A DNA stretch of 62,596 bases from positions 1 to 62,596 of the forward strand of contig NZ_JABJWC010000019.1 in NCBI RefSeq assembly GCF_013155395.1, written 5' to 3'. Positions within the stretch are counted from its first letter, which is position 1. The number at the start of each line of letters is the position of its first letter. The stretch is from Komagataeibacter melomenusus (GTDB lineage: Bacteria; Pseudomonadota; Alphaproteobacteria; Acetobacterales; Acetobacteraceae). Shown here piece after piece: positions 31,193-36,996 of the stretch. A program made the translations under genes and the position numbers. The notes beneath the pieces were generated by a model, which did no database searches, was not told the DNA's origin, and saw only the letters and a program-made list of their open reading frames with translations.

Positions 31193-32095
31193 TTATTTCG
31201 TGCTTTTTGCCTTGCCCGTGGCCGAAGTCGCGGCAGGCACGGCAAAAGGATCAGCCACTGTAGCCGTGCCCGCAAGCTTGGCCCACTGGTCGGCCGCCGT
31301 CGTATCGCCCGCCTGCCGTGCGCTCTGGCTGGCGCGGGCATAAAGCTGGGCCGCGGCCTGCGCATTGCCTGCCCTGGTTGCCGCACGGGCGGCCACGCCA
31401 AGGGCGCGGGCCATGTCACGGTAATGCACCTGTGTCTGGCGGATGGTCGCGGCCTGCAACGCATCCTGCCACGCGGTCTGGGCGCTGCCGCCGGTGGCGA
31501 GCAGGTTGCGGGCCGCCATTTCCCTGGCATCCGCGCTCCAGCTATCGGGGAGTTTGCCGGTCAGCGTCTCGAAATAGGCCGCGACCGAGGCCAGGGTTGC
31601 GCTATCCCCGCTTTCATCGGCAATCAACCCACGGATGAACTGGCCTTTTTCGGCAATATCAGGGTCCTGCGCGCCGGCGGCAAGGGCGGCCTGTTTTGCG
31701 GCTTCCGCCTCGCGACCCAGCCGATGCAGCGCACCGGCCTCCACCAGGTCCAGCCCCGTATCATCCGCCGCCTGCCCGCGCAGCGCCACTGCCGCGCGGG
31801 TCGAGGTAATGGTGGCCAGCGCATCCTGTGGCCTGTTTTCATCAAGCTGCACGGTGGCCAGGTTATAGCCCGCATCGCCAATGGCCGTGACATCATCACG
31901 CGCCACGGCACGCTGGCCTGCCGCGCGGTACTGCTGCTCGGCCACCGCAAGGCGGTCAAGCCCCACGGCATCGCGTCCGGTATCCATGTCCTGCGACAGG
32001 GTGCTGTCGGTCGGGGGCGCGGGCTTCTGTGCCCCGCCGCAGGCGGCAAGGGCCAGTGCCAGGCCCAGTGCCGCGTAGTCCTTTTTCATTTTCAT
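31193..32095 (-). CDS. Lipoprotein of the Mla-like operon, helical repeat type
   Basis: A 300-residue protein whose start overlaps the mlaD stop by ATGA. The signal sequence ends in a lipobox, LALAAC with Cys19, followed by GGAQ, which suggests sorting to the outer membrane because no Asp is at position +2. The rest is Ala-rich and helical, with TPR-like periodicity (AVAEQQYRAAGQRAVARDD, AAAQLYARASQSARQAGDT). Position suggests an outer-membrane or periplasmic partner of the MCE protein, analogous in role but not in sequence to MlaA or to PqiC/YmbA-type lipoproteins. Function inferred only from context. Confidence 0.65.
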   Translation of the reverse strand: MKMKKDYAALGLALALAACGGAQKPAPPTDSTLSQDMDTGRDAVGLDRLAVAEQQYRAAGQRAVARDDVTAIGDAGYNLATVQLDENRPQDALATITSTRAAVALRGQAADDTGLDLVEAGALHRLGREAEAAKQAALAAGAQDPDIAEKGQFIRGLIADESGDSATLASVAAYFETLTGKLPDSWSADAREMAARNLLATGGSAQTAWQDALQAATIRQTQVHYRDMARALGVAARAATRAGNAQAAAQLYARASQSARQAGDTTAADQWAKLAGTATVADPFAVPAATSATGKAKSTK

Positions 32096-33042
32096 GGCTG
32101 CACCTTCTGCGCGGGAAGACGGGCATGGCTTTTCTTCACCTTGTTGCCGCTGCCGCCCAGCAGCCACATGCCCCGCATCTGATCGACCAGCTTCTGCAGG
32201 CTGCTGGCCGTGGTCTGGGCCTGCACCAGCAGGACCGGCAGTTGCTGGCTGGCATCCTTCAGGTTGCTGGTGATGGCGGGTGTTGCGTTGCTCAGGTCGC
32301 CCGTCGCCTTCTGCACGTTGCTCATCGAGGCACTGGCCTTGTCCATCACGGTGGCAAGCTGCTTCTCGATCGGGGTCAACTGGCTGACCGTGGCATCAAG
32401 GCTGGTGATCATCTGTTCGGCCTGGCGGATCAGGTCATCATTGGTCATGAGCCGCCCGATGGAGCCCTTGCCCGCATGCATGTCGGTAATGGTGGCATCG
32501 AGCGTTGCCATCATGTGCTGGGCGTTATCAAGCACCGGAATCACACGGTCACGGATATCGCTGAAGGTCTGGGTAATGGTATCGGCCGGGTTGGGCGCGT
32601 TGGTGGCGCTGAGCACGGCGTAGCTCCAGTCCAGCTTCTCGCCCACGCCACGCGAAATGTCGATGTAGCTCGCCCCCGCCACCACGAAGCGCTTGCGGAT
32701 GATGGCCGTGCTGTCATGGCGGATATAGGGTTCGATATCGGGGTCGATCTCGGCAACGGCGTACATGCCGCCCGAGGGGTTGATGCGCACCCGGCGCACC
32801 GTGCCCGCATGGATGCCCATCACCTCCAGGTCATCACCAACCGAAAGGCCGCTCACCCCATCTTCAGGCAGCACGATGCGCAGCCTGCCCGCGGGCGTGA
32901 GCCAGTCGCGCAGCACGCCGGCCTCGATCACCGCGCCAAACAGGATGACCAGGGCGAGCAGAACAAGGATGCCTACCCATTCATCGGCGTAACGGACGCG
33001 CACAAGCTGCCGGATTCCGTCTGACTGTTGTTTCTGCACCAT
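32092..33042 (-). CDS. MCE/MlaD family lipid-transport protein
   Basis: A 316-residue protein with one N-terminal helix (WVGILVLLALVILFGAVIEAG) and a single MCE domain beginning RLRIVLPEDGVSGLSVGDDLEVMGI and ending ASYIDISRG. The C-terminal half is long and helical, with heptad-like stretches (MIGSLD-type QAEQMITSLDATVSQLTPIEKQLATV is interrupted here), resembling PqiB/MlaD-type needles or coiled coils. MCE hexamers carry lipids between membranes. Its ATG shares the A of the preceding TAA (TAATG), so it is coupled to the degenerate ABC subunit. Confidence 0.82.
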   Translation of the reverse strand: MVQKQQSDGIRQLVRVRYADEWVGILVLLALVILFGAVIEAGVLRDWLTPAGRLRIVLPEDGVSGLSVGDDLEVMGIHAGTVRRVRINPSGGMYAVAEIDPDIEPYIRHDSTAIIRKRFVVAGASYIDISRGVGEKLDWSYAVLSATNAPNPADTITQTFSDIRDRVIPVLDNAQHMMATLDATITDMHAGKGSIGRLMTNDDLIRQAEQMITSLDATVSQLTPIEKQLATVMDKASASMSNVQKATGDLSNATPAITSNLKDASQQLPVLLVQAQTTASSLQKLVDQMRGMWLLGGSGNKVKKSHARLPAQKVQP

Positions 33043-33743
33043 TACACCACCCGCAGGGAAAAAAGACCTTCGTCGAGAAGGCGCATGTGGATATTCACCG
33101 CCTTGCGATATTCATGCCACGCAGCAGTGGAGCGGACGAACCACAGCACCCCGCAGCCACGGTCGCGCGCGGCGGTCATCGTCTCGAAAAACGGCAGGAC
33201 CGTCTCTTCTGGCAGCATGTCGGAAATATCTTCCAGTATCAGCAGGTCGGGCCGCCCCATGAAGGCGCGCACGCAGGCCGCCCGCGCCAGGTCCGCGCCT
33301 GAAAGCCGGTCCGGCGCGGTAATGGGCAGGCCGGGAAAGCCGAACGTATGCCCAAGCTCGGTCGCGCGCCGGACCACGTGATCGAACGGGTCGGTTGTAT
33401 GGTACAGGTGTGGCAGCATGATGTTGAGATGCGTGCCGAACAGGCTCAGCCAACTGCCATGGCGCGAGATGCGGCCAATACGCCCGCGCAGCGCGTTGAG
33501 CTGCCGGTCATACAGCGTGCTCCAGTCCAGCCCCATGAACTTGATGCTGCCCTGCGTGAGCGGGATCATGCCCGTGCACAGATCGGCGAACATGGCGGCG
33601 CGCTCGAAGTCGCGGCAGTCGATCACCGCGCATTCACCCGGCATGATGCGCAGGTTGTAGGGCGCGGGCATGAGGCCACTTTCCTCGAACGAGGGCACGG
33701 CATCACGGAGTTCCAGCAGGGGCGCGTTTGCTGCCATGGTCAA
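33042..33743 (-). CDS. Degenerate MlaF-like ABC subunit
   Basis: A 233-residue protein in the position of the Mla ATPase. It keeps the overall ABC layout but lacks its catalytic motifs. The Walker A site reads DCRDFERAA where GPSGxGKTT is expected, so the phosphate-binding Lys is lost (Arg in its place). The Q-loop region reads RISRHGS without Gln. The signature is LSGAD rather than LSGGQ. Walker B is LLILEDI with the Asp-Glu pair reversed, and the switch His is Arg (WFVRS). It cannot be a normal ATPase. It may be a structural adaptor or may pair with an active ATPase encoded elsewhere. Coupled to mlaE by ATGA. Confidence 0.75.
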   Translation of the reverse strand: MTMAANAPLLELRDAVPSFEESGLMPAPYNLRIMPGECAVIDCRDFERAAMFADLCTGMIPLTQGSIKFMGLDWSTLYDRQLNALRGRIGRISRHGSWLSLFGTHLNIMLPHLYHTTDPFDHVVRRATELGHTFGFPGLPITAPDRLSGADLARAACVRAFMGRPDLLILEDISDMLPEETVLPFFETMTAARDRGCGVLWFVRSTAAWHEYRKAVNIHMRLLDEGLFSLRVV

Positions 33744-34636
33744 AAATCCAGCATGAAGAGGATATTGACCACCAGCACCAGCATGATCCCGCGGGCAAAG
33801 CCGCGTGGCATGATGGTGGCCATCGTATCGTTACTGCTTACGGTCAGCCCCGAAATACATGACCCCAGCCCGACAAAGAAACCGACCAGCACGAATTTGA
33901 GCGGGATGATGAGGTAATCCCACGTGGTCATGGCGGCCAGCACGTTGAAGAAGAACGTCCAGACCGATGAGGTGATGGCCCCGCTGGCATGCGCCACCAC
34001 AAAACCCATGAGCAGCGACACGACCGCGAAGATCATGCCCAGCGTAAAACCACCCACCGTAAAGGCGAAGGTGCGCGGCATGACCAGGGCAAGGAAGGGG
34101 TCGATGCCACGGGCCTGCAGGCCGCGCACCTCGCCGCCGAGCACCATCATCCCGATCTCGGTCAGCGAGAGCATGCCGCTGCGGCCCATCAGGATGATGC
34201 CCACGAGAATGGGCGCGATTTCACGCACCAGCACCGACACCAGGATCGAGCCCGTCATCTGCGCCATGCCGGCATAACCCAGCCAGTACGCCGCCTGCGA
34301 CACGACCATGAGGCCCGCGAGTGTCGCGGTAATGACAATGCTCAGGAAACCGCCGCCAATGACCTGCCGCAAGGTGGCGCGGAACTCATAGATGACCGGC
34401 CTGCGCCATGAATTGGGGCGCAGGCTCTCGCGCAGCGTGCCCCACCCGGCCCCGATCAGCAGCAGCGTGAAACGGACCTGATGGCGCGTCAGCCGCCCGA
34501 TGGCGGCAAGCCAGGGCGCAAAACGCCCGAGCAGCGTGGCGAAGCGGCCCGTATCCCTGCGGTCCTCTGGCGGGGCCATCTGGGCCAGCACGCTCGATGC
34601 CTGCTGCTCGGGCGGCGGGGGAGACGTATCCGTCAT
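33740..34636 (-). CDS. MlaE family ABC permease
   Basis: A 298-residue membrane protein. After about 60 cytoplasmic residues come amphipathic and transmembrane helices with the MlaE signature: LVREIAPILVGIILMGRSG, a conserved TEIGMMVLGGEVRGLQARGIDP coupling loop (interrupted here in quotation), PRTFAF and a closing helix. The family moves phospholipids between the inner membrane and the MCE complex. Its ATG overlaps the stop of the sensor gene and its stop overlaps the degenerate ABC gene, so all are translated as a chain. Confidence 0.85.
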   Translation of the reverse strand: MTDTSPPPPEQQASSVLAQMAPPEDRRDTGRFATLLGRFAPWLAAIGRLTRHQVRFTLLLIGAGWGTLRESLRPNSWRRPVIYEFRATLRQVIGGGFLSIVITATLAGLMVVSQAAYWLGYAGMAQMTGSILVSVLVREIAPILVGIILMGRSGMLSLTEIGMMVLGGEVRGLQARGIDPFLALVMPRTFAFTVGGFTLGMIFAVVSLLMGFVVAHASGAITSSVWTFFFNVLAAMTTWDYLIIPLKFVLVGFFVGLGSCISGLTVSSNDTMATIMPRGFARGIMLVLVVNILFMLDF

Positions 34637-36996
34637 CGCCGCCCGGCCAGCACATAGGTGCGCGTCAGCCCCGCGCCGGGAATGAAGAAGCGCCCACGCT
34701 CACGGAACAGGAAGTTCTGGCGCAGTTGATGATAGACATCCTCCGTCACCTGGATGGTGCCGACATCAGGCGCGCCCTGCGCCATCATCTCGGCCATGCC
34801 CATGGCGTCGCCCCACAGGTTGAAGGCCTGCGGCGCCTTGCCAAGCAGGCCGCCAAAGACGGGGCCGACATCGATGCCGATGCGGAAGACGGGGTCGAGA
34901 TCCTCCTTCGCCAGCACGGCCAGCGTGCTCTCACGCATCATCAGCGCCGCGTTGGCCATGCGGAAGGCCGCCCCCTTGTCCGGCGTGCGTGAGCAGCCCG
35001 CCACGCACACCACGCGATGACCGAGCATGCGGATGGAGAACAGGCCGCACTGCCGGGCGATATCCTGCAGCATGCCCGCCATCGAATCGATGAGCTTGAG
35101 GTTGGCCATCGGGTCGTTCTGGGCCGTCATGACCATGTCCGACAGGCTGATGACCATGATGGCCACGGCAGGGAAGAACCCTTCCATACTGGCCAGGTCC
35201 TGCGCCGCGGGCTGGCCGTTCATGCCCAGGCTGCCGGGTGCGAGCAGGAAGCCCTGGCTGGGATCATGCGGCACTTCATCGGGCGAGGGCTCGGATTCCA
35301 GTTCCTCACGCGCGGCGGCGACCGCCGTGTAATGCTGTGCCGAGAAGCGGGCCGCCGCAACGCCCGCCATCATCTCGACAAAGTGGGAGACCACCTCCGC
35401 CCGCGGCGCATCCTCAAGCGTGATGACGCCCACAGGGCCGCTGCTGCCAAGAATGGGGCTGCAGAACAGTGCCTGGCTGCCAAACGAGCGCATGTAGATG
35501 CGGTAGAACGCCCCGACCCGCTCATCACCCGCAGCATTCTGCGTTGCCAGCACATCACCATGCGAGACGGCATCGAAAAAGGTCTTGAGGTCGGTGGTGG
35601 CCATCTCGAAGCCACCGGAATGCACATCTTGCTGCCGGTCGTAGGAATCGATGCACATCAGCGTATGCCCGTCATGCAGGATGCGCCAGATGGCGGCGCG
35701 CCGGGCGTGGGACTGGTCGGCCAGTGTCTCGGTCAGGAGCAGGGCGTTATCTTCGGGGTTGAACAGGTCCGGATAGGTTGCGACCGACTGCAGGGCATGG
35801 CTCTCGTAATTGGCCACGGCACGGGACTGCGCGATCTGCGCGCGCATATGGTCGGCCCGGCGCGCCTGCAGGAACAAAAGCAGCCCCAGCCCCGAGGCCA
35901 GGAACACCACCAGGACGATGAAGAGCAGGTTCTGCCGCCCATCCGCCATGGCGAACTGCGAGAAATCATCCTCCGGCGCCACGAGCAGCAGCACCCAGCT
36001 ATCGCTGCCAACGGGCAGGTTGGCGGTAATGGTGACGTAATTCTTGCCCTTGACCTTGACCGTGCGCGCGCCATCGCCATGAACGCGATATTCATCAAAC
36101 GCCTTGGTCATGACCGGAAAGTGCTGCGGGTCGAGCTTCATTTTGTCAGGATCGCCGCCAGCCGCCGCCTCGGCCTCCCGCATGCCGTGGCCTGCCAGCA
36201 CATGCCCGTCGCGATCCATCAAGATGGCGTTGCCACTTTCACCAATGCGCAGGGAATTGAGGAATTTGTTCAGGTGCGCCAGCGACATGTTGATGGCATA
36301 GACATAGGTCTTGTCATCCTGCCCCTTATAGGGAATGGCCGCCGTAAGCGTGAGCTGGCGGGTCACTTCCACGATATAGGGACGGGTCCAGTGCAACTGG
36401 CCTTCCTTGACCGTATCGGCAAACCAGGCATGGCCGCGCGGGTCGTAGCTGCCGGCCGCGGTCTGCCACTGCCTGAGCATCTTGCCATTGGCGTCGCGCA
36501 GTTCATGGGTGAAGACGGGCGGCTTGTCCGCCTGCCTGACCAGGGTGGTCAGGGCCACCTGCTGGTCGTTCTCGCCATGTTCAAGCGTGCTGAAATTACC
36601 ATCGCCATCAGCGATGTAGAAAGACTGGATCTGCGGCACGTTGCGCAGCATGGTGCTGCTGTAGCCCATGAAGATCTTCTGTTCCACCGCGGGCGCGCCA
36701 TGTTCGAGCATGTCACGCGCCACCACGCTGCCAGACGAGGCGGGCGCAAGGAAGGAATTGACTTCCTTGGCGATGTAATCCTGCTGGCTGACCAGCAGTT
36801 CATGCGTCAGGGCAAGGGCTCCGGTGCGCACCGTGCGGTAGGAGTGCCAGCCAAAGCCTGCGATGATGGCAATGATGCCCACCACGCACGCCACGGGCAC
36901 GCCCACATGCAGCAGGAAACGCTTGACCTGATCGGAAGGGGCAATCGTGGGATCGACAATCTCGTCCGTGGACAATGCTCTCTTCCTGTTCAACAC
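34633..36996 (-). CDS. dCache-GAF sensor with catalytically degenerate class III cyclase domain
   Basis: A 787-residue membrane protein: helix 1 at 27-49, a periplasmic double-Cache sensor at about 60-345, helix 2 at 356-377, a GAF-like domain at about 400-550, a linker, and a cyclase-type domain at about 608-785. Fold motifs persist (FRIGIDVGPVFGGLLG, NLWGDAM), but key residues are gone. The first metal Asp is replaced (VISLSDM for LFADI), the second is His (MLGHR for TIGDG), and the catalytic Asn and Arg of GDTVNxAxRM read Gly and Met. It is therefore probably a pseudo-cyclase, perhaps a regulator. It is the first gene of the Mla-like operon, 74 bases after dnaQ. Confidence 0.72.
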   Translation of the reverse strand: MLNRKRALSTDEIVDPTIAPSDQVKRFLLHVGVPVACVVGIIAIIAGFGWHSYRTVRTGALALTHELLVSQQDYIAKEVNSFLAPASSGSVVARDMLEHGAPAVEQKIFMGYSSTMLRNVPQIQSFYIADGDGNFSTLEHGENDQQVALTTLVRQADKPPVFTHELRDANGKMLRQWQTAAGSYDPRGHAWFADTVKEGQLHWTRPYIVEVTRQLTLTAAIPYKGQDDKTYVYAINMSLAHLNKFLNSLRIGESGNAILMDRDGHVLAGHGMREAEAAAGGDPDKMKLDPQHFPVMTKAFDEYRVHGDGARTVKVKGKNYVTITANLPVGSDSWVLLLVAPEDDFSQFAMADGRQNLLFIVLVVFLASGLGLLLFLQARRADHMRAQIAQSRAVANYESHALQSVATYPDLFNPEDNALLLTETLADQSHARRAAIWRILHDGHTLMCIDSYDRQQDVHSGGFEMATTDLKTFFDAVSHGDVLATQNAAGDERVGAFYRIYMRSFGSQALFCSPILGSSGPVGVITLEDAPRAEVVSHFVEMMAGVAAARFSAQHYTAVAAAREELESEPSPDEVPHDPSQGFLLAPGSLGMNGQPAAQDLASMEGFFPAVAIMVISLSDMVMTAQNDPMANLKLIDSMAGMLQDIARQCGLFSIRMLGHRVVCVAGCSRTPDKGAAFRMANAALMMRESTLAVLAKEDLDPVFRIGIDVGPVFGGLLGKAPQAFNLWGDAMGMAEMMAQGAPDVGTIQVTEDVYHQLRQNFLFRERGRFFIPGAGLTRTYVLAGRR

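Follow-up and report, generated by a model that had tools for sequence, protein, structure and literature searches.

An MCE-type operon of Komagataeibacter and its relatives in which the nucleotide-binding domain lacks ATP-site motifs

The window, a stretch of 62,596 nucleotides from Komagataeibacter melomenusus, contains an mlaE-type permease gene followed, in the position of mlaF, by a gene for a nucleotide-binding domain (NBD) protein with degenerate ATP-site motifs, termed F here. Is F a decaying gene, a subunit that uses ATP in some unusual way, or an NBD that is retained for a role other than hydrolysis? An earlier note, made from the sequence alone, proposed a conserved pseudo-ATPase and left open whether the transporter is ATP-independent, powered by another ATPase or regulated through a dead subunit.

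Operon organization and gene products

Five closely packed genes were found on the minus strand in the order cyclase homologue-mlaE-F-mlaD-lipoprotein:

34633..36996, minus strand: cyclase homologue (Pfam, alignment to 5o5k, family counts)
33740..34636, minus strand: mlaE-type permease (Pfam MlaE, E 1.7e-33)
33042..33743, minus strand: F, pseudo-NBD (pseudo-ATPase) at the place of MlaF, probably starting from the ATG at 33737
33594..33617, minus strand: former Walker A of F, CRDFERAA, residues 41-48
32092..33042, minus strand: mlaD-type MCE protein (Pfam MlaD, E 2.3e-10)
31193..32095, minus strand: lipoprotein, 300 aa (sequence; lipobox LAAC)

The start of mlaE overlaps the stop of the cyclase homologue (ATGA), the mlaD stop and the lipoprotein ATG at 32095 likewise overlap (ATGA), and the F stop and the mlaD start have one base in common (TAATG at 33042). 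The F open reading frame (33042-33743) codes for 233 aa from a TTG codon and for 231 aa from the ATG at 33737, which appears to be the likelier start because the close orthologues L009, L012, L016 and L019 carry ATG at that column; residues of F are numbered from this ATG. The earlier note described overlapping codons on both sides of F: the one-base overlap with mlaD stands, whereas the ATG start places F 2 nt past the mlaE stop.

The MlaE domain (116.4 bits, cut-off 22.5) and the MlaD domain (41 bits, cut-off 25.1) both exceed their curated Pfam cut-offs, which places the operon, by its domains, among the MCE lipid transport systems, and the MlaE protein matches the MlaE chains 7ch8, 6ic4, 6z5u and 6xbd in a phmmer search. 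The alignments used for structure prediction combined the window protein with 53 (F) or 42 (mlaD, alignment A4) of the 79 named loci. For the mlaD-type protein, the AF2 single-chain model is poor (pLDDT 62.6) and predicts, at this low confidence, an N-terminal helix, the MCE domain and about 130 residues arranged as three long C-terminal helices; the C-terminal tail is conserved in alignment A4. The lipoprotein has a lipobox (LAAC) with Gly right after the Cys, and its sole Pfam match is a weak TPR_7 (E 0.13). A loose lipobox pattern was found in 126 of the 136 homologues examined, with G, S or A as the next residue in 122. By the E. coli sorting rule, Gly in this position directs a lipoprotein to the outer membrane, and the sequence points to the same destination here.

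The first gene of the operon codes for a dCache-type periplasmic sensor region, a GAF domain and a class III cyclase domain. Guanylate_cyc (E 4.8e-20), GAF (E 1.3e-5) and MCP-like_PDC_1 all score above their Pfam cut-offs, and dCache_1 (E 3.2e-11) scores slightly below (43.7 bits, cut-off 45). In an alignment to 5o5k, a bacterial cyclase of solved structure, the homologue has His for the second metal Asp, Gly for the transition-state Asn and Met for the Arg, and the first metal Asp aligns to Ser. Among the 159 family rows with all of these columns, both metal Asp residues occur in none, Asn in eight, Arg in six, and Asn and Arg jointly in none; 18 of the 177 rows were omitted because a key column was gapped, and the omitted rows include at least one plain misalignment (L098). 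The first metal column is ambiguous, with a nearby F-x-D in 123 of the 159 rows; when F-x-D is taken as the metal Asp, both Asp residues are present in seven rows from four genomes, none of which has the Asn or the Arg. The operon's first gene shares the cyclase domain with class III nucleotide cyclases by sequence, but the catalytic residues of an active enzyme (two metal Asp, Asn and Arg) were never found together in the rows counted, and the window protein does not carry this set. A PF00211 search of its own genome at 1e-10 gave no match besides this homologue. We conclude that it is likely a pseudocyclase, a case less clear-cut than that of F and resting on one control cyclase (L211), as one of the six intended was found and aligned. 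As a new point, the operon looks to encode a second pseudoenzyme candidate besides F.

NBD ancestry of F and its ATP-site residues

The likeness of F to MlaF-type ATPases, described in the earlier note, holds for the NBD fold along the length of the protein. Searched against the PDB, a profile of 50 F family homologues matched 280 sequences with E-values of at most 0.001, the best being 1.9e-20; the 60 listed are all ABC proteins. The AF2 model of F, built from 54 rows, has the NBD fold (pLDDT 90.8), and the 50 Foldseek matches listed, out of 1711, are ABC proteins (E 3e-14 to 2e-12), including LolD, FtsE, MacB and MlaF. What does not hold is a particular closeness to MlaF by sequence: among annotated NBD families, LolD, DevA, FtsE and MetN score best, with MlaF listed but not first, and F scores 16.2 bits against the NCBIfam MlaF equivalog cut-off of 441. 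The label "MlaF-type" rests on operon context: in all 191 loci with flank (a minimum of 1400 bases ahead of F and 1300 behind it), F is preceded by mlaE and followed by mlaD. Against the NBD fold, the window F stays below the Pfam ABC_tran cut-off (20.5 versus 25 bits), and only 27 of 50 family members match ABC_tran at E 0.01. The profile E-value and the existence of a clade without a P-loop show that the observation is not due to chance; by descent, F is an ABC NBD, and its NBD fold is predicted.

At the canonical columns of the window F, the Walker A residues G/G/G/K/S correspond to C41, F44, R46, A47 and A48, the Q-loop Gln to R92, the Walker B D/E to E169 and D170, the D-loop D to P176 and the switch H to R202, and the signature reads L145-S-G-A148. 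This agrees with the degenerate Walker A and signature, the Glu-Asp in Walker B and the His-to-Arg change at the switch noted earlier. The missing Q-loop Gln was also correctly described for this protein but does not extend to the whole family, in which Gln is present in 29 of 144 distinct homologues. In the F model, the helix after the old P-loop has its first residue at position 44, three ahead of A47 (the Lys equivalent), and the loop is therefore predicted to be shortened.

For the family counts, 197 loci, with some genomes fetched repeatedly, were reduced to 144 distinct core sequences, and ABC matches below 150 bits were omitted; the broken copy L097 has no Walker A and signature columns, which leaves 143 sequences for these positions. 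The Walker A pattern GxxGxGK[ST] was found in none of the 144 distinct homologues, the Walker A Lys in none of the 143 with the column (Ala in 112), the signature S-G-G in none of the 143 with the columns, and the Walker B Asp and Glu together in none of the 144. The place of the Walker B Asp is taken by Glu in 138 of 144 and by Asp in three, that of the switch His by Arg in 99 and by His in two, and the D-loop Asp is found in one; 113 of 144 have none of the Lys, the Walker B Asp, the His and the Gln. Among eight ordinary ABC NBDs co-aligned as a control, the P-loop is kept in six, with a gap in one and Gln for Lys in one. The possibility of a P-loop shifted elsewhere in F was rejected, as none of the 144 distinct sequences contains a GK[ST] pattern. 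Intact Walker A and B in homologues from the same operon, named in the earlier note as evidence that would count against a pseudo-ATPase, did not occur among the homologues found.

Across 207 loci, F family members score at least 164 bits and other ABC matches at most 84 bits. A quick tree was built from 46 family and nine ABC rows, with the long end branches of L084 and ABC_L002 flagged; in it, a single branch with SH-aLRT 99 and a stem of 2.34 sets the F family apart. On these sequences, the loss of the ATP motifs fits one ancient event.

Conservation, distribution and other MlaE systems

We estimated dN/dS by the Nei-Gojobori method for the window genes against seven Komagataeibacter genomes and four genomes from neighbouring genera. 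Within the genus, F has values of 0.04-0.13, similar to those of mlaE (0.06-0.12) and mlaD (0.05-0.09); in the comparison with the four neighbouring-genus genomes, F gives 0.16-0.32 at dS of 0.8-1.0. By these codon comparisons, F is under purifying selection within the genus, and the low within-genus values together with the clade-wide absence of the motifs support the description of F as a conserved pseudo-ATPase. The family has conserved residues of its own, including W72, R84-R89 (RGRIGR), H113, G133-P138 (GxPGLP), D149 and R157, among others.

The order cyclase-mlaE-F-mlaD-lipoprotein is kept in 184 of the 191 loci with flank (133 of 139 when distinct F proteins are counted), and the cyclase homologue lies upstream in 189. 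No lipoprotein was seen in five loci, including the short cuts L196 and L197, for which the longer cuts L207 and L205 show it. Two loci from one genus, L089 and L092, keep mlaE-F-mlaD-lipoprotein, with the cyclase not detected before mlaE; among three upstream ORFs, Pfam identified a solute-binding protein and an Mfd-like protein, with no match for the third. Low or split scores were observed for mlaE in L013 and L060 and for the cyclase homologue in L060 and L038, which suggest broken frames in these loci, perhaps due to assembly errors.

Among the 299 genomes drawn from the family Acetobacteraceae, 90 have an F match below E 1e-20, with the next match, an ordinary ABC protein, at 5e-12; deeper members were reached by profile (e.g., G318 and G380-G382). 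Of the 385 genomes drawn from the class, six match F at 1e-24, including two from outside the family (G449 and G764), where all five operon genes are present. Loci L203 and L204 represent the full five-gene operon in two genomes outside the family, and L203 clusters in the tree with the family member L086 (SH-aLRT 100), a grouping that gene transfer would fit. Named carriers (79 loci) include Komagataeibacter, Novacetimonas, Gluconacetobacter, Acetobacter, Asaia, Gluconobacter, Acidomonas and Tanticharoenia, and the nearest named proteins, at 99% identity, belong to Komagataeibacter xylinus and K. nataicola. One 2.0-Mb genome, G126, has the operon as shortened, broken pieces (L097, G126:C1:299182-305580), and a second strong MlaE was not seen there (best E 1.6e-30 among the matches listed). 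The operon may be on its way out in this genome, where only broken pieces are left, and therefore the system can be lost.

A search for an intact mlaF, recommended in the earlier note, revealed two in the same genome, each next to another mlaE gene, so that the F operon is accompanied by two further MlaE systems with intact ATPases. The one on contig C80 is an mlaF-mlaE pair (L208, G000:C80, 3866-5478), whose MlaF has GGSGTGKS, Asp-Glu and His; no mlaD, mlaC or mlaB was found in the four adjoining ORFs scanned. The one on contig C72 (L209, G000:C72, 4173-7907) comprises STAS-mlaE, an intact mlaF (GGSGCGKS), an mlaD-type MCE protein and an ABC_trans_aux lipoprotein. At least two MlaE matches were found in each of the 80 carrier genomes searched (of 96), with just two in 18 of the 80 among the matches listed. 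In 79 of the 80, one MlaE matches at E 5e-69 or better, while the best pseudo-operon MlaE reaches 2e-38 among the matches listed. We considered the F operon as a replacement of a lost Mla system and rejected it, given the separate strong MlaE in 79 of 80 carriers, with G126 as the exception. Since ordinary Mla genes exist beside the F operon, it is not their relic either, and the best reading is that of a specialized third MCE-type system beside two intact ones.

Comparison with known systems and possible modes of action

Similar to MlaFEDB of E. coli, A. baumannii and P. aeruginosa, the F operon encodes an MlaE permease and an MCE protein together with an NBD-fold protein. It differs by the absence of ATP-site motifs in the NBD and of a recognized mlaB or mlaC gene, and by the addition of a cyclase homologue, a lipoprotein and a long helical extension on the MlaD-type protein. 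According to excerpts of PMC7790496, lipid transfer from MlaD to MlaC is spontaneous in vitro, and the direction of Mla transport and its need for ATP are still argued. The chimeric Mla-Pqi system Mpc, described for Hyphomicrobiales (excerpts of PMC12436622), likewise combines an MlaE-type permease, a protein in the MlaF position, an MlaD-type protein and a proposed inter-membrane bridge, whereas its MpcF is an ABC ATPase and its MpcE carries a STAS domain. The Mpc gene layout given in these excerpts is close to that on C72, which comes from an acetic acid bacterium and is separate from the F operon. PqiABC and LetAB are MCE systems like the F operon and, in the same excerpts, have no ATPase domain; they differ in having PqiA/LetA membrane proteins and multi-MCE stacks, whereas the F operon has an MlaE permease and a dead NBD. 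The F operon is assembled from familiar types of parts (MCE system, MlaE, NBD fold, cyclase fold). Among the literature matches listed, which cover subscription papers thinly and exclude preprints, none describes a pseudo-ATPase within an MlaE/MCE operon, and main-text passages of two Gluconobacter oxydans knockout papers (PMC12041372, PMC8602642) contain nothing on the operon genes.

We propose that F is probably a dead NBD, retained to form the structural cytoplasmic base in an MCE lipid conduit that is not ATP-powered at F. In such a system, F would dimerize and dock on MlaE, neither binding nor hydrolyzing ATP, and the MlaE-type permease, F, the MlaD-type needle and the lipoprotein would form a conduit resembling MCE systems for which a periplasm-spanning form is proposed. 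As in Pqi and Let, lipid would travel from one membrane to the other along its own gradient or be driven elsewhere. Opening would be set by the conformation of the base, plausibly via the periplasmic sensor with its degenerate cyclase, and not by ATP. Among the mechanisms left open in the earlier note, an ATP-independent or regulated conduit is favoured. Weighing against this reading are the single motif residues retained by some members (Gln in 29, switch His in two and Walker B Asp in three of 144), the higher dN/dS of F outside the genus, the broken copy in G126 and the presence of F matches in only 90 of the 299 family genomes. We suggest only tentatively, as a guess more apt to fail than to hold, that the two pseudoenzymes build a signal-gated ATP-free lipid bridge, in which a sensor ligand changes the twofold pseudocyclase dimer, and this in turn opens or closes the twofold pseudo-NBD dimer under MlaE; if so, the sensor would do the job of ATP binding in ordinary MlaFE.

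Other explanations assign F a different function. It could pair with an intact MlaF encoded elsewhere, the heterodimer powering the operon's MlaE by ATP, and degenerate/intact NBD pairs are indeed known among other ABC transporters; the genome has two intact MlaF genes, and a further strong MlaE is present in 79 of 80 carriers. However, a composite ATP site consists of the Walker A of one subunit and the LSGGQ of the other, and F has neither in all members with the columns; since F could complete neither composite site, and an intact NBD was not found within the operon, we consider such pairing unlikely. An unconventional use of ATP or another nucleotide without a P-loop would agree with the retained NBD fold, the Glu at the Walker B Asp place (138 of 144), the Arg residues R42 and R46 conserved near the old P-loop in closer relatives and the cyclase homologue encoded by an adjoining gene, but it is hard to reconcile with the Walker A Lys missing from all 143 homologues and the predicted shortening of the loop, and appears improbable.

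The association with the cyclase homologue (189 of 191 loci) and the conserved W72, H113 and D149, which have no known catalytic role, could also be explained if F were a signalling adaptor that links the pseudocyclase to other proteins outside any transporter. This is very doubtful in view of L089 and L092, which retain mlaE-F-mlaD-lipoprotein with no cyclase detected. Finally, the loss of all motifs and the broken copy in one genome (L097) might be taken for signs of a decaying gene or a sequencing artefact, an explanation with almost no chance of being correct given the losses shared by many independent assemblies, the open frames, the low within-genus dN/dS and the fixed operon, so that the earlier judgement against decay is upheld.

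For the favoured reading of F as a dead NBD at the base of a lipid conduit, the significance lies in MlaFE-like transporters that have lost their ATP sites clade-wide with the NBD still under selection. The F clade offers a natural test of non-hydrolytic NBD roles and of whether phospholipid can move through an MlaE permease without ATP, and the co-conserved degenerate cyclase would represent a new kind of lipid transporter control. Tests are easy in the carriers, which belong to the bacteria of vinegar, fruit and cellulose.
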